A stretch of 64,000 nucleotides of DNA from Myxococcales bacterium (GTDB lineage Bacteria > Myxococcota_A > UBA796 > GCA-2862545): NCBI GenBank assembly GCA_019634415.1, contig JAHQVJ010000013.1, positions 1 through 64,000 of the forward strand. The letters run 5' to 3'. Shown piece by piece: positions 2,099 through 14,665 of this stretch. The position numbers and the translations under genes are program-made. The first letter of the stretch is position 1, and each line of letters begins with the position of its first letter. The notes under the pieces were generated by a model. That model saw only the letters and a program-made list of their open reading frames with translations, was not told the origin of the DNA and did not search any database.

Positions 2099-3292
2099 TC
2101 AGCGCGGCTCGCGGGCTGGACGGAATCGCTCCACGTAGGGTGCGAAGTGGCGGTCTACCTCGGCTTCGGTGCAGCTGCTGTCCGCCAGCGCATAGCGGTG
2201 CCGACCCAGGCGATGCTGCCGATGGGCCGCCAGCCACACCCGCACCCGCTCGTCGTGCCCGGCTGGCCAGGCCCACCCCAGCGAGGTGTACAGCGCCCGC
2301 AGCGTGCCCAGCGGATCGGCCACCAGCTGGAGGTACGCCACGTCGTGGAAGCGCGCTGGTCGCTCGTCGCGGATCCGCACCGCCTGTTGCGCACGCCGCG
2401 CCAGCAGCGTCAGGCTCGTCCGCGCCGTGCCCGCCACGTCCAGCTGATCGGTCACCAGCCCGTGGGTGGTGCGCACCAGACTGTTCATCGAGGCCACCGC
2501 GCGTCGCGGATCCCGGTGGGTGAGCACCACCTGGGCCTCGGGAAGCGCGTCCAGCAGCTGCTCCAAGAACAGGAAGTGCATGGGTGACTTCAGCACCCAG
2601 TGGTGGAACGGATCCCGGCCGCGCCCGTACAGCGCCAGCAGATCGCGGAACTGCGTGTAGGGCTCCACCGGCTCCTGCTCGGCGAGCCACGCGGCATACG
2701 ACGGCACGGGCAGCAGCGACCACCACTCGATGGACTGGAAGCTCGGCATGAACAGGTACGAGCACTCCTCGGGCAGCTCCGAGCCCACCTCGTGCTTGTG
2801 CTGCAGCTCGGGTACGAGCCGGCGGAACGCCCACAGCGAAGCCGTGGCCCGTCGCCGTCGCGCGCCGCCCGTGGCCCAGTCCGAGGCCGTGGGTACGGGA
2901 AGTGGCTGCATCAGCAGCCACATCGGCAGCCAGGCCGCCCGCGGATCGAGGGCCAGCAGCCGCTGCAGCAGCGTGGTGCCCGTGCGCGGCATGCCTGCCA
3001 CCACGACGGCAGGCCCCACCCTGCCCGGCCCGCCGAGCGGTGCCCGCGCGGCATCGAGCTGGCCACGGATCGACAGCGCATCCACGATCATGTCGCGCAC
3101 GATCAGCCGCCCCAGCGCGTGCAGGCGCGCCTCCGTCGCGAGGGACTGCACCAGCACCTCCAGCCCGCGGCCCGCCTCCCCCAGCTCGGCCGTCGAGACA
3201 CCGGCTCGCTGCAGCAGCCCCTCCACCTCGAGCCGGCGCGGTGCCAGCCCCCTCGCCACCGTCCGCGCGATCTGCTGGAAGAGACGGCTCAC
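2099..3292 (-). CDS. PAPS-dependent sulfotransferase family protein
   Basis: A 397-residue sulfotransferase (Sulfotransfer_3-like). The 5'-phosphosulfate-binding loop is MPRTGTTLLQ at residues 101-110, HWVLKSPMHF is the conserved segment at 231-240, and the 3'-phosphate-binding RDP with downstream Ser is at 260-269. Such enzymes transfer sulfate from PAPS to a hydroxyl or amine, often on a lipid or carbohydrate; the substrate here is unknown. The start is a GTG overlapping the stop of the upstream reductase gene (GTGA at 3289-3292), implying translational coupling. It is last of four genes with the reductase and two ADO-like diiron proteins, so the natural guess is sulfation of an alcohol made by that pathway. 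Confidence 0.85.
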   Translation of the reverse strand: MSRLFQQIARTVARGLAPRRLEVEGLLQRAGVSTAELGEAGRGLEVLVQSLATEARLHALGRLIVRDMIVDALSIRGQLDAARAPLGGPGRVGPAVVVAGMPRTGTTLLQRLLALDPRAAWLPMWLLMQPLPVPTASDWATGGARRRRATASLWAFRRLVPELQHKHEVGSELPEECSYLFMPSFQSIEWWSLLPVPSYAAWLAEQEPVEPYTQFRDLLALYGRGRDPFHHWVLKSPMHFLFLEQLLDALPEAQVVLTHRDPRRAVASMNSLVRTTHGLVTDQLDVAGTARTSLTLLARRAQQAVRIRDERPARFHDVAYLQLVADPLGTLRALYTSLGWAWPAGHDERVRVWLAAHRQHRLGRHRYALADSSCTEAEVDRHFAPYVERFRPAREPR

Positions 3293-4440
3293 GACGGCGC
3301 GACGACCTCGATCACGCGCAGCGGCTCCTCGGGACGGTCCGCGATCCGGCGCATGTGGGCCTGCAGCGCCTCCGACTGTGCGATGTAGGCCCGCTGGCAG
3401 CGCAGCGTGCTCTCCTCCGTCGCGTCGGGGAAGTCCAGGCCGTCGGCGCACCATGCGTCGAGGTGGTCTCGCTCGAACTGCCACGGGTGCGTGGCGATCT
3501 CGAAGCTCACCGAGGCCAGGGCGATGAGCGCCCGCTGGCGGCGGGGGATCGATCGCATGGGCACGTCCTGCAGCCGCTCGTAGTAGGTGACGACCTCGGG
3601 CCGGAGCGTGGTGCGCACCCAGTGCTCCCACAGGGTGCGCAGGTGAGGGGCGGTGCTCGCCTTGGACACCAGGTTCACCACCCCGCTGGTGGGGGGCTGC
3701 TGCCACGCCGCCCGCAGCCCCACGCGGAACGCATCCTGGTGGAGCACGGGGAAGGGCCACCGCCGGGCGACGGCGTGCAGCTCCGGCGCCCACGCTCGCG
3801 TCATCAGTCGCTCGTAGGCCGACCACAGCTGCACCAGGCCGTAGCGTCGCCCGCTGTAGTGCCCGTCGCGCGAGTCGCCGATCACGATGGAGGGCCGCAC
3901 CACGAGCCAGGGCACCCCGCCGCCTGCCACGAGGTGCTCGGCGCGGCGCTTGCTGCGGGTGTAGGCCGTGGGATCGCGCCGGGGCTCGGGCAGCAGCGAC
4001 TCGGGCACCGGGTGATCGACGTAGCCGCTCGCGAACGCCGTGGAGACGTAGGTGAAGTGCCTGCAGCCCCAGGCCTCCGCACAGCACACCAGCTCGTCGG
4101 TCCACCCCACGTTCACTCGCTGCAGGGCGTCCTCGTCGAAGTAGTCCAGGCAGCCGGCACAGTGCAGGATCTGCTGTACGCCGCTCTCGTCGACGGCGCG
4201 GTCGAGCTGCCGCATGGAGCCCAGCGCCGGCAACGCCACCACCCGCGCCCGTGCTAGCACCTCCTGCGAGCCTCCGGTGGCCTGCAGCTCCCGCCCGATC
4301 CGTGCCAGCACGTTTTCGGCGCGGTGGGTGGCCCGGACCGGTAGCAGCAGGTGGTGGTCCGTGTGGGCGAGCAGCTCTGCCGCCGCCAGCGACCCCAGGT
4401 AGCCCGAGGCGCCGGTGACGAGGACCCCCGACCTCGTCAC
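3289..4440 (-). CDS. SDR-type thioester/fatty acyl reductase-like protein
   Basis: A 383-residue extended short-chain dehydrogenase of the NAD_binding_4 (male-sterility/thioester reductase) type. The Rossmann motif TGASGYLG is at residues 9-16, the catalytic Ser lies in YVSTAFASG (132), and the Tyr-Lys pair is in YTRSK (Tyr159, Lys163). Relatives reduce acyl-CoA, acyl-ACP or carrier-protein thioesters to aldehydes or alcohols with NADPH. It is not the cyanobacterial acyl-ACP reductase family, but it could supply aldehyde to the neighbouring ADO-like proteins. GTG start overlaps the stop of the ADO-like gene by four bases (GTGA, 4437-4440), and its own stop overlaps the sulfotransferase start. 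The exact substrate is inference. Confidence 0.8.
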   Translation of the reverse strand: MTRSGVLVTGASGYLGSLAAAELLAHTDHHLLLPVRATHRAENVLARIGRELQATGGSQEVLARARVVALPALGSMRQLDRAVDESGVQQILHCAGCLDYFDEDALQRVNVGWTDELVCCAEAWGCRHFTYVSTAFASGYVDHPVPESLLPEPRRDPTAYTRSKRRAEHLVAGGGVPWLVVRPSIVIGDSRDGHYSGRRYGLVQLWSAYERLMTRAWAPELHAVARRWPFPVLHQDAFRVGLRAAWQQPPTSGVVNLVSKASTAPHLRTLWEHWVRTTLRPEVVTYYERLQDVPMRSIPRRQRALIALASVSFEIATHPWQFERDHLDAWCADGLDFPDATEESTLRCQRAYIAQSEALQAHMRRIADRPEEPLRVIEVVAPS

Positions 4441-5210
4441 TGCGCGGCTCGGGCCGCGAACCCGATGTGCAGCGGCTCGTCCCGGCCGTACGCCGCCATC
4501 GACGCCACGAGCGGCGAGGTGGCGGAGTCGGGGAATCCGATCCGATCGAGGCTGTCGAGGTAGCGCTCCAGCGCCTGAGCGCGGGTCTCGTCGAGATCGA
4601 GCTTCAGATGAGCCAGATCGAGGGAGCCGCAGTCCATGCCGAGCTCGTCGCACAGGAAGTGGCAGCTCGTGGCGATGAGGGAGAACAGTTCCGGCATCAC
4701 CCGGTGATGGGCCCACACCAGCGCGTCCTCGGTGCGGCGTGGGTCGGCGGACCGTCGCTGGGCCAGACGTGCGATCCCCTCGTCGAGATGCTCGAGCTCG
4801 TCCTTCAGGATCCGGCTCGCCACCTGGGCCGTGGTCTCGTCCACCCGATCGGGATCCGACAAGATCTCGTAGAGCACGATGGCCATCGACTCCGTCATGA
4901 CGTCCTGCACCAGCCAGCAGGCCGTGACGTCGCGCCGGAGCACGGCCGCGTGGAAGTGGCCGCGCACCTTGGTCCACTGAGGCTCCACCACCCGCGACTG
5001 CACCTCGAAGCCGAGCTTCGTCGCCAGCCCCACCAGCTGCTTGATGTGGCGCGCCTCCTCCTGCGCTTGGGTCACGGTGGCGAGCTTGTCGCCGGGATCG
5101 GGGAGCAGATGGACCAGCTCGGAGTAGTTGTCCACCGCCGTGATCTCTCCAGCGATGGCGTTGGAGAGGATGTAGGCGAGCAGATCGCGGTACCCGTCGC
5201 GGTCCGACAT
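4437..5210 (-). CDS. Aldehyde deformylating oxygenase-family diiron protein, copy 2
   Basis: A 257-residue all-helical protein matching the cyanobacterial aldehyde deformylating oxygenase family (PF11266, formerly DUF3066). All six expected diiron ligands can be placed: Glu22 (AGE), Glu52 and His55 (EEARH), Glu107 (MTESMAI), Glu138 and His141 (DELEH). His55 to Glu107 is 52 residues, the same as His63 to Glu115 in the Prochlorococcus enzyme as I recall it. The segment DNYSELVHLLPD also matches the family. Known members convert a Cn fatty aldehyde to a Cn-1 alkane plus formate. The ATG overlaps the TGA of the upstream paralogue by one base (TGATG). Activity and substrate are unproven, and the host is apparently not a cyanobacterium. 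Confidence 0.85.
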   Translation of the reverse strand: MSDRDGYRDLLAYILSNAIAGEITAVDNYSELVHLLPDPGDKLATVTQAQEEARHIKQLVGLATKLGFEVQSRVVEPQWTKVRGHFHAAVLRRDVTACWLVQDVMTESMAIVLYEILSDPDRVDETTAQVASRILKDELEHLDEGIARLAQRRSADPRRTEDALVWAHHRVMPELFSLIATSCHFLCDELGMDCGSLDLAHLKLDLDETRAQALERYLDSLDRIGFPDSATSPLVASMAAYGRDEPLHIGFAARAAQ

Positions 5211-6058
5211 CAGCAGCAGCCCGTCGACGGATCGCAGCCCTGCGCCGACACTCCGGTGACCTCCAGTGCCTCGCGCACCGATGGATCGTAGGCGGCCATC
5301 GACGCCACGAGGGGGTTGACCACGGCGGGATCGAAGCCCGCCTCGTAGAGCATCGACACGTAGCGATCCAGGGCGGCCATCTCCAGCATCTTCAGATCGA
5401 TGGCGATGGGGCCCATGGCCACGGTCTCGCACACCAACGACTTCTCGCGGCACAGGAAGTCGCAGCTGTCCTTCACCATGCCGAACAGCAGCGGCATGCA
5501 CCGGTGGTGGGCCCAGCGCAGCCCGTCGTGCACGGTGTCGGCGTCTTCCGCCAGCAGGGTGCTGATTCGGCCGAGCCCCATGTCGAGGTGCTCGAGCTCG
5601 TCGTCGAGGAGCTGCCTAGCGATCCGCGACGTCTCCGTGACGCCGTTCGCCTCGCTGGCGAAGGTCTCGTACATCGCGATGGCCAGGCTCTCGACCATCA
5701 GATCCTGGATGATCAGACAGGTGGCCAGCTCCCGGCGACCCACCGCCTCGTGGAAGTTCTCCCGCAGGCCCACCCACTGCTCGTGCACGTAAGTCTCGTC
5801 GATGGATACGCCCACCACCCCCGCCAGCTTCTCGAGCAGCAGGATGTGCTTGCACTCCTCGTTGGCCTGCTGGACGGTGGCGATCTTGTCGTCAGTCTGC
5901 TCGAACAGCTGCACCATCTCGGTGTAGTTGTCGACGGCCATGAGCTCGCCCGCGCGCGCATTGGTGATGACGTAGGTGAGCAGCTGCTGCAGCTCGGGTG
6001 AGTTCTGCACGAAGCCGATGGGCGTGATCCCCTCGGGCATGGACGGTGTGAGCTCCAT
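5210..6058 (-). CDS. Aldehyde deformylating oxygenase-family diiron protein, copy 1
   Basis: A 282-residue paralogue of the next gene, again of the ADO family (PF11266). Ligands: Glu38 (AGE), Glu68 and His71 (EECKH), Glu123 (MVESLAI), Glu154 and His157 (DELEH). The stretch WVGLRENFHEAVGRRELATCL followed by LIIQDL closely resembles the substrate-channel helix of cyanobacterial ADO. Ligand spacing is identical in the two copies, pointing to an old tandem duplication. It differs by a longer N-terminus and a cysteine-rich tail ending GCDPSTGCC. First gene of the four-gene run; the start has a good ribosome site (GGGAGG, four bases before ATG). It may act as an oxygenase with copy 2 as partner or as a second isozyme. 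Confidence 0.85.
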   Translation of the reverse strand: MELTPSMPEGITPIGFVQNSPELQQLLTYVITNARAGELMAVDNYTEMVQLFEQTDDKIATVQQANEECKHILLLEKLAGVVGVSIDETYVHEQWVGLRENFHEAVGRRELATCLIIQDLMVESLAIAMYETFASEANGVTETSRIARQLLDDELEHLDMGLGRISTLLAEDADTVHDGLRWAHHRCMPLLFGMVKDSCDFLCREKSLVCETVAMGPIAIDLKMLEMAALDRYVSMLYEAGFDPAVVNPLVASMAAYDPSVREALEVTGVSAQGCDPSTGCC

Positions 6059-6073
6059 CGAACCTCCCGCACG

Positions 6074-6102
6074 TTGACCAAATCGGTAGTCGACCCTACC
6101 AT
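6074..6102 (+). promoter_or_regulatory. Sigma-70-like promoter for the desaturase gene
   Basis: TTGACC at 6074-6079 and TACCAT at 6097-6102 are separated by 17 bases, reading toward the desaturase gene, whose ATG is about 24 bases downstream of the expected start site. An inverted repeat GGTAG (6085-6089) / CTACC (6096-6100) with a central GTCGAC lies over the spacer and could be an operator shared with the divergent ADO operon. Predicted by eye only. Confidence 0.45.
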
Positions 6103-6132
6103 GGAGGCGTCGAGGGCCCTTCGGAGGTATTC

Positions 6133-7092
6133 ATGGAGCTTCCGGAGGATTCGAGCCGCTCGACCAAGGCGTTCGGGATCACCCGAGCGTGGCTGACGGC
6201 TCACGAGGGCCGGGTCCTGGGACCCTGGCTGCGTGCGGTTGGGGTCGAGTGGACCGTGATCCTCACGGCCATCGCCGCCGCTCAGGTCAGCCCGTGGTGG
6301 GCCTGGGTGCCGCTGTGGGTGCTCGTCGGTACCCGGCAGCATGCGCTGGGCGCGCTGCTCCACGAAGGGGTGCACCGGAACCTGTTGGCGAACCGTCGGG
6401 CCAACGACGCACTGGCGAACTGGCTCGCGGCCTATCCGATCTTCATCCCAGTGCAGGGCTACCGAACGAGCCATTTCCGTCACCATCGGTGGCTCGAGAC
6501 GGACAAGGACCCGGGCCGCTTGAGCCTCGACGCCCACCCGAAGGACTGGACCTGCCCGATGACGCTGGGTCACTTCGTCACCATGGTGCTGCGGGATGCG
6601 AGCGGACTGGGGCAGGCCTCTTCGGCGTCGCTGCTGGCGTACCTGTGGGAGATGGACGAGCCCCGCTGGCCCCACGTGGTCCGCATCGTCGGGCTCCAGC
6701 TGGCGTTCTTGGGGCTGGCCCTCGTCGGCGCCGACGTGTGGACCTATCTGCTGCTCTGGGTGGTGCCGAGCCTGACCATCGCGCCGCTGTGCTACCGGCT
6801 GCGCGGGCTGTCGGACCACTCGGCCGTGGGACCGATGCAACTGAAATACAACCGAAGCGAGGTCGACGTGATCGCCTCGACGCGCACCTTGGTGCCGGGG
6901 CCGATCCTGGGGCCGCTGCTGCTTCCGTGGGCGGCGTCGTACCACGTGGAGCACCACCTGTTTCCCACGGTGGGGTTCACGAACCTACCCGAGCTGCACG
7001 CACAGCTGATGCGTCACCCCGACTATGCGCAGCGGGCCCACGTCACGTGCGGGCACACAGCGTTCCTGCGCGAGCTGCTGGGTCGAGCCTGA
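6133..7092 (+). CDS. Membrane fatty acid desaturase family protein
   Basis: A 319-residue integral-membrane diiron protein of the FA_desaturase family (PF00487). The three histidine boxes are HEGVH (77-81), HFRHH (114-118) and HVEHH (271-275), the last inside the typical YHVEHHLFP segment; hydrophobic spans flank them near residues 37-67 and 185-222. Family members introduce double bonds or hydroxyl groups into fatty acyl chains, sphingoid bases or carotenoids. ATG is preceded by GGAGGT. It is divergently transcribed from the ADO/reductase/sulfotransferase operon across 74 bases, which suggests a shared role in lipid modification, for example desaturating the acyl chain that the operon processes. 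Confidence 0.85.
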   Translation: MELPEDSSRSTKAFGITRAWLTAHEGRVLGPWLRAVGVEWTVILTAIAAAQVSPWWAWVPLWVLVGTRQHALGALLHEGVHRNLLANRRANDALANWLAAYPIFIPVQGYRTSHFRHHRWLETDKDPGRLSLDAHPKDWTCPMTLGHFVTMVLRDASGLGQASSASLLAYLWEMDEPRWPHVVRIVGLQLAFLGLALVGADVWTYLLLWVVPSLTIAPLCYRLRGLSDHSAVGPMQLKYNRSEVDVIASTRTLVPGPILGPLLLPWAASYHVEHHLFPTVGFTNLPELHAQLMRHPDYAQRAHVTCGHTAFLRELLGRA

Positions 7093-10962: not shown

Positions 10963-11511
10963 GTGGCCCGTAGTGAGACTGAGATTCGCCAACGACACTT
11001 CGTCGAGGAGGTGGGTCTGATGTTCGACCAGATGGGGCTACAGCGGATGATGGGGCGGATCGTCGGCATGCTGCTGATCTGTGATCCGCCGCACCAGTCG
11101 TCGGCCCAGATCGCCGAGTACCTCGACGCCAGTCGCGGGTCGGTGAGCACCATGACGCGTCAGCTGGTCACCATGGGCATGATCCAGCGGCACCCCGTGC
11201 CGAACACTCGTGCCAGCTACTTCCGCATCGAAGACAACGCCTGGCCGGAGATGGCCCGCGAGGACATCACTCGCCTGCGCATCTTTCGAGAGCTCGCCGA
11301 GCAAGGTCTGGGCTTGCTCGCCGAGACCCCCATGGAGCGTCAGCTCCGCCTGAAGAACCTGCGGGACTTCTACGCCTACCTGGAGCAGGAGATCCCTGCG
11401 ATGATCGACCGCTGGGACGCATTGCGTTCCGAGGAGGACACATGCCCTGGGCACTGTTCGCCATGCTGTGGGGTGCCTCCCCCGCACAGGCTTCGTCCGA
11501 CGACGCTCTGA
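10963..11511 (+). CDS. GbsR/MarR-like transcriptional regulator
   Basis: A 182-residue protein of the GbsR/MarR winged-helix type. The segment LICDPPHQSSAQIAEYLDASRGSVSTMTRQLVTMGMIQR contains the helix-turn-helix and LICDPPHQSSAQIAEYL is typical of GbsR-like proteins; RASYFRIEDNAW is the wing region. A helical C-terminal dimerisation part follows. GTG start after AGGATGAG. The reading frame overlaps the next gene by 70 bases and its last 25 residues (proline- and cysteine-rich) are encoded within that overlap and may be of little functional importance. It is first in an operon with a LolA-like protein and a Lol-type ABC transporter, and probably binds the inverted repeat just upstream. Confidence 0.8.
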   Translation: MARSETEIRQRHFVEEVGLMFDQMGLQRMMGRIVGMLLICDPPHQSSAQIAEYLDASRGSVSTMTRQLVTMGMIQRHPVPNTRASYFRIEDNAWPEMAREDITRLRIFRELAEQGLGLLAETPMERQLRLKNLRDFYAYLEQEIPAMIDRWDALRSEEDTCPGHCSPCCGVPPPHRLRPTTL

Positions 11512-12182
11512 TCGAGGAGCTGCTTCGGGCCACCGACGATGCCGCACGGGGTGACTCCTCCGTCGCGGTGGTGTCGATGGAGGTCAAGACCTCGCGCTAC
11601 GAGCGCACGATGAAGATGAAGTCGTGGTCGAAGGGCACGGAGCGGTCGCTGATCCGCATCCTGGAGCCGGCCAAGGACGCGGGCATCGCCACGCTCAAGG
11701 TGGACGACAACCTGTGGAACTACCTACCCAAGGTGGACCGCACCATGAAGGTGCCGTCGGGCATGATGGGCGGCTCGTGGATGGGCAGCCACTTCACCAA
11801 CGACGACCTGGTGCGGGAAGCCCGGCTGTCGGAGGACTTCACCTTCGAGGTGACGTCGCGCCCCGAGGGCGGCGCGGGCAACTACGTCATCACCTGCGTG
11901 CCCAAGCCCGACGCGCCGGTGGTCTGGGGCAAGGTGGTGGTGGAGGTCCGGGCCGACAAGGTGCCGGTCAAGATCGACTACTACGACGAGCGCGACGAGC
12001 TGGTCCGCACCATGACCTACGACGACGTGCGCGAGGTGAACGGCGTGCTCACGCCCCTGAGCTTCACCCTCACCCCCCACGACAAGCCCGGTGAGTACAC
12101 CAAGATGTCGATGGCGGAGCTCGATCTCGACGTGGAGCTCGCGGACTCGATGTTCAGCATGCAGTCGCTGAAGAAGCAGTAA
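11442..12182 (+). CDS. LolA-like outer-membrane lipoprotein-sorting protein
   Basis: A 246-residue periplasmic protein with signal peptide MPWALFAMLWGASPAQA. The body matches the outer membrane lipoprotein-sorting family (COG2834, LolA-like): TRYERTMKMKSWSKG-type strand, LKVDDNLWNYLPKVDRTMKVPSGMM, GSHFTNDDLVRE and the late strand YDDVREVNGVLTPLSFTL. Family members have the LolA half-barrel that binds lipid or acyl groups and usually sit beside LolCDE-like transporters, as here. ATG has GGAGGA seven bases upstream. It is followed two bases later by the first permease, so the protein is the likely periplasmic carrier for whatever the transporter releases. Confidence 0.85.
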   Translation: MPWALFAMLWGASPAQASSDDALIEELLRATDDAARGDSSVAVVSMEVKTSRYERTMKMKSWSKGTERSLIRILEPAKDAGIATLKVDDNLWNYLPKVDRTMKVPSGMMGGSWMGSHFTNDDLVREARLSEDFTFEVTSRPEGGAGNYVITCVPKPDAPVVWGKVVVEVRADKVPVKIDYYDERDELVRTMTYDDVREVNGVLTPLSFTLTPHDKPGEYTKMSMAELDLDVELADSMFSMQSLKKQ

Positions 12183-12184
12183 GC

Positions 12185-13420
12185 ATGCGTTTTCTGACGT
12201 TGGTTGCGTGGCGGAACCTGTGGCGCCACAAGAGGCGGAGCCTCATCACGGCCGGGGCCATGGCGGTGGCCGTGGGCGTGAGCATGGGGATGATCTGCTT
12301 TCAGGAGGGCATGTTCGACACGCTCTTCGACGTGATGGTGGAGCAGCAGCTCGGCCACGTGCAGGTGCACCACCCCGACTACCCGGGTCAGCGCACGCTG
12401 CACGACACCCTCGACGACGCGGATGCCCTGGTGAACCGCATCGAGGAGCAGCCCGGCACGGCCTCGGTGAGCCCCCGCATCAACGGCTTCGCGCTGGTGG
12501 GTGGGGAGAAGAAGTCGGCCGGAGCCATGCTCGTGGGGGTGGACGCCGCGCGTATGGCGAAGACCACGCGGGTGCTCGAGCAGATCGAGGAGGGCAGCTT
12601 CCTGTCGGTGGAAGGCGCCGGTGAGATCGTGGTGGGGCACAAGCTGCTCGAGGAGCTGGAGATCGGGGTCGGCGAGAGCGTCGTGGCGGTCACCCAGTCC
12701 GCCGATGGCTCCATGGGCAACGCGCTGTACGAGATCGTGGGCACCTACAAGACGGGCAACGCCCAGCTCGACCGCAGCGGTGCCTTCCTGCACCTCGGCG
12801 ACGTGCAGGATCTGCTGGTGCTGCCCGATCAGGTGCACCAGCTCACGGTGCTGTCGTCCGAGTCGGACGACATCGAGGGCTACGCCGCCGGTCTGTCGCA
12901 GACGGTGAGCAGCGACGTCGTCCAGGTCCAGACGTGGCAGGAGGCGAGCCCGCAGACGGCTCAGCTCATGGCCATGCGCGACTTCGCGGCCTTCTTCATC
13001 CTCGGCATCGTGCTGCTCACGGCCGCCTTCGGCATCGTGAACACCATGCTGATGTCGGTGTTCGAGCGCACCCGGGAGCTCGGGGTGCTGCGCGCCCTGG
13101 GGATCCGGCGCGGTCGGATGATGTCGCTCATCGTGGTGGAGAGCATCTTCCTGGCGGCCGTCGCCTCGGCGCTGGGGCTCGCCCTCGGGGGAGCCTTCAG
13201 CTACTACCTGGTCACCTACGGCTACGACATGTCGGCGTCGCTGGAAGACGGGTTCTCGTTCTCGGGGGTCACGCTGGACCCCGTCATCTACGGGGCCCTC
13301 TCGCCCCGACACGTCGTCAACGTGGTGATTGCGGTGTTCGGTGTCAGCATCCTGGCGTCGCTGTGGCCGGCCTGGCGGGCCGCCAACCTGCGACCCGTCG
13401 AAGCCATCCGGTCGGAGTGA
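12185..13420 (+). CDS. ABC transporter permease, LolC/LolE-like (first)
   Basis: A 411-residue FtsX/MacB-type permease. The first transmembrane helix is near residues 21-39 after WRNLWRHKRRSLITAG; a large periplasmic domain spans roughly 45-255; three helices follow around 265-400, containing the conserved FGIVNTMLMSVFERTRELGVLRALGIRRGRMM coupling segment. Members of this group extract lipoproteins or other hydrophobic substrates from the inner membrane by mechanotransmission. It starts two bases after the LolA-like gene and is followed by a second, related permease, suggesting a heterodimer. Confidence 0.9.
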   Translation: MRFLTLVAWRNLWRHKRRSLITAGAMAVAVGVSMGMICFQEGMFDTLFDVMVEQQLGHVQVHHPDYPGQRTLHDTLDDADALVNRIEEQPGTASVSPRINGFALVGGEKKSAGAMLVGVDAARMAKTTRVLEQIEEGSFLSVEGAGEIVVGHKLLEELEIGVGESVVAVTQSADGSMGNALYEIVGTYKTGNAQLDRSGAFLHLGDVQDLLVLPDQVHQLTVLSSESDDIEGYAAGLSQTVSSDVVQVQTWQEASPQTAQLMAMRDFAAFFILGIVLLTAAFGIVNTMLMSVFERTRELGVLRALGIRRGRMMSLIVVESIFLAAVASALGLALGGAFSYYLVTYGYDMSASLEDGFSFSGVTLDPVIYGALSPRHVVNVVIAVFGVSILASLWPAWRAANLRPVEAIRSE

Positions 13421-13423
13421 GCC

Positions 13424-14665
13424 ATGAAGTTGTTGTCGTTGGCTGCGAGAAACCTGGCTCGGAACATGCGCCGCACGGTGATCACGCTGGCCGCCATCGC
13501 ATTCGGCCTGTCGATGATCCACCTCATGATCAACCTGCAGACGGGCCAGTACCGCGACATGATCACCGCCGGCATCAGCACGTTGGCGGGCCACGTGGTG
13601 GTGCAGGCCGAGGGCTACCAGGAGGAGAAGGACGCCGATCTGGTGGTGACCGACGCCGATGCGGTGACGGAGATGTTCTCCACCACCTTCCCCGACGCCG
13701 TGGTGGCGCCGCGGATGTTCATCGGTGGGCTGCTCAACAGTCCCACCAACTCCGTGGGCGTGGCGCTGAGCGGGGGGATCCCGTCGGCGGAGTCCGCGGT
13801 GCAGGACCTGGACGACAAGGTCAAGGAAGGCACCTGGCTCGAGGACGACGATCCGCGCGGCCTGCTCATCGGGGCGGGCCTTGCGAAGTCGCTGGGCGTG
13901 GGCGTGGGCGACAAGGTCGTCTACATGGGCCAGCACGGTGACGCGGAGGACATGACCAGCAAGCTGTTCCGCGTGAAGGGCATCTTCAAGACCGGTGCAG
14001 CCGAGCTGGACGGCTTCGTGGCGCTGGCCCACCTCGACGCCACCCGCGAGCTGTACGGGGCTGGCGACGTGGCCCATCAGGTCACCCTGCACCTTCCCGA
14101 CCCCGACACGAGCGACGCCGCCACGGCCACCTCGAAGGAGGGGCTGGCGGGCCGCGACGGCATCGAGGTGCTGTCGTGGCAGGAGGCCATCCCCGAGATC
14201 GGGGCGATGATCGAGCTGGACCGCAGCAGCGGCGACATCTTCCTGACCATCCTGGGCCTCATCGTCACCATGGGTGTGCTCAACACGGTGCTGATGAGTG
14301 CGCTGGAGCGAACTCGCGAGTTCGGCGTGATGCTGGCCATCGGCATGCGGCCCGTGCAGATCGCGCGCGTGATCTTGCTGGAGGGCGCCTTGCTCGGCGT
14401 CCTCGGCGCGTTGTTGGGCCTCGTCGGTGGCCTGCTCATCTCGTACCCGCTCGTGGTCTACGGGCTCGACTACACCGAGTACCTGGGGGGCGAGAGCTTC
14501 GAGAGTGGAGGGGTGGTGGTCTCCGCCATCATGAAGGGCGAGATCAACCCCGTGCGCATGATGTCCTACACCGTCGGCGCGGTGGTCTTCACCACGCTGG
14601 CTGCCATCTACCCCGCCATCCACGTCGCGCGGCTCAAGCCGGTCGACGCGATGCGTCACGTCTAG
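13424..14665 (+). CDS. ABC transporter permease, LolC/LolE-like (second)
   Basis: A 413-residue permease with the same architecture as the preceding gene: first helix after RNLARNMRRTVITLAAIAFG, periplasmic domain about 45-265, and three C-terminal helices with GVLNTVLMSALERTREFGVMLAIGMRP. The two permeases are clearly related but diverged, as expected for the two halves of a LolCE-like transporter. It begins three bases after the first permease gene ends and is followed nine bases later by the ATPase gene. Confidence 0.9.
   Translation: MKLLSLAARNLARNMRRTVITLAAIAFGLSMIHLMINLQTGQYRDMITAGISTLAGHVVVQAEGYQEEKDADLVVTDADAVTEMFSTTFPDAVVAPRMFIGGLLNSPTNSVGVALSGGIPSAESAVQDLDDKVKEGTWLEDDDPRGLLIGAGLAKSLGVGVGDKVVYMGQHGDAEDMTSKLFRVKGIFKTGAAELDGFVALAHLDATRELYGAGDVAHQVTLHLPDPDTSDAATATSKEGLAGRDGIEVLSWQEAIPEIGAMIELDRSSGDIFLTILGLIVTMGVLNTVLMSALERTREFGVMLAIGMRPVQIARVILLEGALLGVLGALLGLVGGLLISYPLVVYGLDYTEYLGGESFESGGVVVSAIMKGEINPVRMMSYTVGAVVFTTLAAIYPAIHVARLKPVDAMRHV

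Follow-up and report, generated by a model that had tools for sequence, protein, structure and literature searches.

A divergent pair of ADO-like diiron proteins and an NAD_binding_4 reductase in a Myxococcales genome: a possible variant of the two-step route through aldehydes

What could two relatives of the cyanobacterial aldehyde deformylating oxygenase (ADO) do in a myxobacterial genome, where their operon also encodes a sulfotransferase and a reductase that belongs to another family than the cyanobacterial reductase? The locus lies in the first 64,000 nucleotides of contig JAHQVJ010000013.1 from a Myxococcales bacterium (the whole stretch is called the window below). An initial annotation, made from the sequence alone, suggested that it could produce odd-chain hydrocarbons or a sulfated lipid. 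The genome (G000) is a 9.8 Mb draft in 254 contigs, 82% complete and probably metagenome-assembled, and since position 1 of the window is also position 1 of its contig, the operon lies near a contig end.

Gene arrangement, sulfotransferase and desaturase

Four genes on the minus strand (2099-6058) form an operon in which each stop overlaps the next start. They encode the ADO-like diiron protein A (P0001, 282 aa; 5210..6058), which has a C-terminal CxxxxxCC tail, the ADO-like diiron protein B (P0002, 257 aa; 4437..5210), an NAD_binding_4 SDR resembling thioester reductases (P0003, 383 aa; 3289..4440) and a PAPS-type sulfotransferase of the Sulfotransfer_3 family (P0004, 397 aa; 2099..3292), the last two with GTG starts. 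The overlaps are TGATG at 5212-5208 (A/B), GTGA at 4440-4437 (B/reductase) and GTGA at 3292-3289 (reductase/sulfotransferase), and because of them the four genes are very probably read as one transcript. A membrane protein of the fatty acid desaturase family (P0005, 319 aa; 6133..7092, plus strand) is divergent from the operon. The 74 bases between the P0001 and P0005 genes (6059..6132) are probably a shared control region; they contain a single predicted sigma-70-like match (6074-6102, plus strand) and, according to a sequence scan, an imperfect palindrome at 6090-6113. The initial annotation had described four coupled genes opposite a desaturase, and Pfam matches and the stop/start overlaps bore this out in coordinates, frames and families. 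Adjoining the operon on the same strand is a gene for a LysM and C39-like peptidase-fold protein (637-1986).

P0004 matched PF13469 (Sulfotransfer_3) with 138.8 bits (cut-off 27), and its nearest solved structures by sequence were 2zq5 and 2z6v, which we take to be mycobacterial Stf-type sulfotransferases. The genome has 16 Sulfotransfer_3 matches, P0004 among them, so a role for it is argued from its position within the operon and not from its occurrence in the genome. Two sulfotransferases 34–35% identical to P0004 flank a large AMP-ligase-like open frame in another genome (L019, G054:C244), possibly a lipid or polyketide cluster; a G054 match with two sulfotransferases nearby was considered as a related locus and rejected as weak (22.9 bits). 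P0005 matched PF00487 with 103.8 bits (cut-off 29.7), its translation contains the histidine boxes HEGVH, HFRHH and HVEHH, and the GntB hydroxylase model of NCBIfam matched it weakly (104 of 380 bits). A sequence search for a solved relative of P0005 found none.

Family, fold and substrate channel of the ADO-like proteins

Both oxygenase-like products had been assigned to the ADO family, and both passed the cut-off of PF11266 (Ald_deCOase; 28 bits), P0001 with 70.6 and P0002 with 63.4 bits; P0006, an ADO-like protein of the same clade, scored 65.4 bits. Against the ADO equivalog model TIGR04059, P0001, P0006 and the further clade member P0009 reached 69.4, 66.0 and 73.4 bits, respectively, at a cut-off of 222.65. 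Scores of about 70 bits against a required 223 mark the clade as a divergent sister group of ADO. A and B share 44% identity across 235 residues, P0002 is 53–54% identical to its gammaproteobacterial relatives, and the identity between the clade and Synechococcus elongatus ADO is 22–27%. Chance does not explain the family assignments: E-values lay between 1e-17 and 1e-40, and unrelated genomes also carry the ADO-reductase pair (see below).

The AlphaFold model of P0001 (pLDDT 80.4, pTM 0.79) has the ADO fold: each of its best 26 Foldseek matches in the PDB was an ADO from a cyanobacterium (TM about 0.86 by target length, E down to 1.6e-8), and the next class, R2-like oxidases, followed at E 1e-3. 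Likewise, when the PDB was searched with the clade profile, cyanobacterial ADO provided the only strong matches (E about 1e-18). Aligned with the ADOs of S. elongatus and P. marinus (4quw, 2oc5), both proteins possess all six diiron ligands, as the initial annotation had stated: E32, E60, H63, E115, E144 and H147 (S. elongatus numbering) are kept, and the ligands in P0001 are E38, E68, H71, E123, E154 and H157. Near the iron, Y39, Q110, Y122 and D143 are also kept, and R62 is present as R or K. Replacement of R62, Q110 or Y122 by nonpolar residues lowers the activity of cyanobacterial ADO (PMC5356278). In a phylogenetic tree the clade grouped with P0008 and cyanobacterial ADO, apart from the other ferritin-like proteins tested (branch support 99/98), in agreement with the assigned family; P0008 and the cyanobacterial ADOs sit on long branches whose relative order is unsure. 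A test of the origin of A and B by duplication inside the window lineage gave p-AU = 0.238.

The substrate channel differs more, as judged from 17 positions named in PMC5007808. Changes common to all four clade members were I27N, V28A, F67L, C70L, F86Q, F87W, A121L/M and V184S. Apart from I27N, F86Q, A121L/M and V184S, of which the last lies where identity of 22–27% and an insert make the alignment uncertain, the channel is mostly hydrophobic. In cyanobacterial ADO, A121F blocks aldehydes longer than C12 (PMC5007808). From this precedent and the channel changes we infer that the clade takes a shorter or more polar substrate than the C16–C18 ADOs. A plain copy of the C15/C17 alkane pathway is hard to square with the altered channel, and the scores are far below the equivalog cut-off.

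The insert lies between ADO helices 6 and 7. In protein A it covers residues 198-211 (5426..5467, minus strand) and carries a cysteine triad (C199, C203, C210), and alignment places the equivalent insert of protein B at about 4629-4664 (minus strand). The three cysteines are invariant in five of five relatives and absent from cyanobacterial ADO. In addition, P0001, P0006 and P0009 end in CC, whereas P0002 has no such tail. The insert is near the AAR-contacting region and the proposed aldehyde entry of ADO, as this region is defined in PMC7089970. AAR docks to ADO through E196, E200 and D201 on helix 7 (PMC7089970), and E196/E200/D201 are not kept as a set in the aligned clade.

The reductase and its pairing with the oxygenases

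P0003 matched PF07993 (NAD_binding_4) with 78.7 bits (cut-off 20.1), which upholds the claim that the reductase is of this type and not AAR. It scored 86.3 bits against the thioester reductase model TIGR01746, below the cut-off of 213, and it also matched the Pfam families Epimerase and 3Beta_HSD. The motifs TGxSGYxG and Y160xxxK164 are invariant in the reductase alignment, and the nearest solved structure by sequence is MxaA. The AlphaFold model of P0003 was poor (pLDDT 54) and was left out. No carrier or ligase gene was seen near the operon.

A profile search of GTDB genome contigs returned a single related locus, L017, on JACDZG010000100.1 from a Chromatiaceae metagenome-assembled genome; a class-wide search added L062 from the gammaproteobacterial genome G426, and no related loci were found among plasmid and viral contigs. 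The homologues of P0003 are 45% (L017) and 39% (L062) identical to it. The ADO-like clade was thus seen in 3 of about 1,390 genomes searched (partial scans of samples that overlap in part, with small homologue numbers), and in all three the matching reductase clade is encoded in the same operon. Searches of 229 and 284 genomes found the reductase clade only in these three (690–773 bits, next best 78.6), and neither clade occurred without the other in the genomes sampled. The initial annotation had treated five genes as one set; the ADO-like and reductase genes are kept together in L017 and L062, but the sulfotransferase and desaturase genes are absent from both. The conserved core is therefore the ADO-like protein and the reductase, with the sulfotransferase and desaturase outside it.

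L017 and L062 share the gene order ADO-like, PF03773 permease, thioredoxin-like protein, reductase and then transporter genes. The permease and a thioredoxin-like protein of 141–142 aa occupy the space between the ADO-like and reductase genes (L017:5238-6620 and L062:8444-9806), and the thioredoxin-like protein of L062 has no Pfam match. On the 3' side of the reductase, both loci continue with a polar-amino-acid-type ABC importer, then OsmC and then an ABC ATPase, after which L017 has an FtsX-type permease. The window itself has a gene for a LolA-like protein followed by two FtsX/MacB-type permease genes at 11442-14665, with a MarR-like gene upstream; the likeness of these permeases to the terminal ABC ATPase and FtsX permease of L017 is probably a coincidence.

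The window organism is unlike in kind to the genomes around L017, as phylum-wide searches from the two starting genomes gave quite unlike results: weak matches in 80 of 284 genomes at E 1e-3 around the window genome, and matches in 2 of 398 genomes at E 1e-8 around L017. The weaker matches, which often came as tandem pairs and were inspected along with some neighbouring genes, fell outside ADO plus the window clade in the tree and were discarded as close relatives. Such pairs, about 900 bases apart and belonging to another ferritin-like diiron family, were seen at G296:C444, G208:C42, G127:C158, G205:C387, G092:C6 and elsewhere, and they are common in other families of the window phylum.

The three genomes with the pair (G000, G298 and G426) gave no match to AAR (TIGR04058), although absence from G000, only 82% complete, is no proof. 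In G020, from the same taxonomic family as the window genome, the end of a distant ADO-like gene overlaps an AAR-like gene (L018:6030-7894, G020:C54; 110.7 bits to TIGR04058). The encoded ADO-like protein has the same cysteine insert and is 24–28% identical to the window oxygenases. This may be a non-cyanobacterial AAR-ADO pair, and it suggests that an acyl reductase is a recurrent partner of ADO-like proteins. On the simplest reading, one reductase would have been replaced by an unrelated one, in a direction that is not readable from three loci.

Proposed function and relation to known systems

The explanation that we favour, with a probability of about one half, is that the core is a two-step module in which the NAD_binding_4 reductase makes an aldehyde from an acyl thioester and the ADO-like diiron oxygenases oxidise this aldehyde. 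P0003-type reductases would reduce a CoA- or carrier-bound acyl thioester, and the oxygenases would then use O2, most likely in an ADO type of C1–C2 cleavage that yields a product one carbon shorter. The module would work as cyanobacterial AAR and ADO do, with a reductase of another family replacing AAR. The sulfotransferase of the window organism probably sulfates a hydroxyl group on the product or on a related lipid, and its desaturase-family protein may act on the acyl chain. The order of reductase before oxygenase is best read from family knowledge and gene pairing. This explanation draws on PF11266 membership, the exclusive ADO fold match and the kept ligands and near-iron residues, as well as on the same-operon reductase in three of three genomes, the lack of an AAR match there, AAR-docking residues that are not kept as a set and the acyl reductase of G020. 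Counting against it are the sub-equivalog scores (66–73 of 222.65 bits), the low identity to ADO, the changed channel residues, a reductase below the thioester reductase cut-off and the lack of a carrier or ligase gene seen nearby. The transporters and thioredoxin-like protein of the gammaproteobacterial operon would be needless for alkanes and thus also count against an alkane route.

Several of these points would fit another assignment, which we consider unlikely but still worth weighing: the ADO-like proteins may be diiron oxygenases of another reaction, such as hydroxylation or C–C cleavage of an acyl thioester or polar metabolite, in a small natural-product or lipid-tailoring cluster where the SDR acts afterwards, or on a ketone or alcohol, and no aldehyde is made. 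The low ADO identity and polar channel changes agree with this, as do the scores of the reductase to Epimerase and 3Beta_HSD and the two tandem paralogues, which suggest divided labour. BioE, a diiron protein with a cADO-like site, performs other chemistry by cleaving the chain of acyl-ACP (PMC12915131), so a similar diiron site alone is compatible with other chemistry, and this speaks against the ADO-type reading. The exclusive fold match, the ADO-like first shell and a reductase partnership as in cyanobacteria and G020 are harder to reconcile with it. Very improbable is the idea that these proteins serve as ferritin-like stores or oxidases that use no organic substrate, and that their neighbours are incidental, since the weak matches to encapsulin-cargo ferritin-like models that might suggest it are far below cut-off, the tree sets the clade apart from the other ferritin-like proteins tested, and each of the three genomes with the clade has the linked reductase.

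The surroundings of L017 raise the improbable alternative that the compound on which the module acts is linked to a metal or metalloid, as in an organoarsenical, and would be bound by the cysteine triad and CC tail and exported by the PF03773 permease, the window operon being a derived version. ArsR, ArsC and ACR3 genes (L017:2127-4187; ACR3 378.7 bits, over cut-off) are divergent from the L017 operon, which includes the PF03773 permease and a thioredoxin/ArsD-like protein; L062 likewise has the permease and thioredoxin-like genes. The permease matches the SaoE and SO_0444 efflux models, below cut-off, and three clade members share both the invariant cysteines and the CC ending. However, PF03773, though called ArsP_1, is broad as a family, and P0002 has no CC tail. 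The L062 stretch read has no ars genes but a TonB receptor and cobalamin genes upstream, and the genes examined around the operon in the window included none that are ars-like. The arsenic link is a lead of low probability. A bolder and still less probable version is a new diiron oxygenase-thioester reductase module whose cysteine triad and CC tail bind a metal, metalloid or thiol-bound substrate, in an import-modify-export operon in gammaproteobacteria and for a sulfated lipid in the window organism. The gammaproteobacterial module, once beside arsenic genes, might then form or break down, for instance, arsenic-containing lipids.

If the favoured two-step module is correct, the ADO-like and NAD_binding_4 pair would be a rare variant of the route through aldehydes. 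One paper describes the ADO step as unique to cyanobacteria (PMC3903477), and a metagenome study reported several kinds of hydrocarbon-production genes from lineages outside the cyanobacteria, Myxococcales among them (PMC10176705). We found no description of this gene set in the open-access literature. Intact ADO relatives outside cyanobacteria with a different reductase would widen the range of aldehyde-cleaving diiron chemistry, and the cysteine insert near the AAR-docking face bears on aldehyde hand-over.

Compared with the cyanobacterial cADO (PF11266/TIGR04059) and AAR (TIGR04058), the window system has the same fold, iron ligands, near-iron residues Y39/Q110/Y122/D143 and reductase-oxygenase gene pairing; it differs in that identity is 22–27%, scores stay under the equivalog cut-off, the channel is altered and the oxygenases have gained a cysteine insert and, in P0001, a C-terminal tail. 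It also differs in its reductase family and in its hosts, which as far as known are not cyanobacteria. The G020 pair is alike in its adjacent overlapping genes and the cysteine insert of its oxygenase, but has an AAR-type reductase and a distant oxygenase. BioE, compared here by description only, shares a cADO-like site and acts on long-chain acyl groups, but it takes acyl-ACP directly and forms a pimeloyl thioester (PMC12915131).

A parallel in the type of reductase joined to the oxygenase is engineered. Synthetic alkane and propane pathways reportedly join carboxylic acid reductase (CAR) and ADO, and CAR has a reductase domain of NAD_binding_4 type. Those routes include adenylation and carrier domains, whereas the window has a natural system with a stand-alone reductase and divergent oxygenases; beside the engineered CAR and ADO routes, it would offer natural reductase-oxygenase pairs as candidates for making shorter or polar products.
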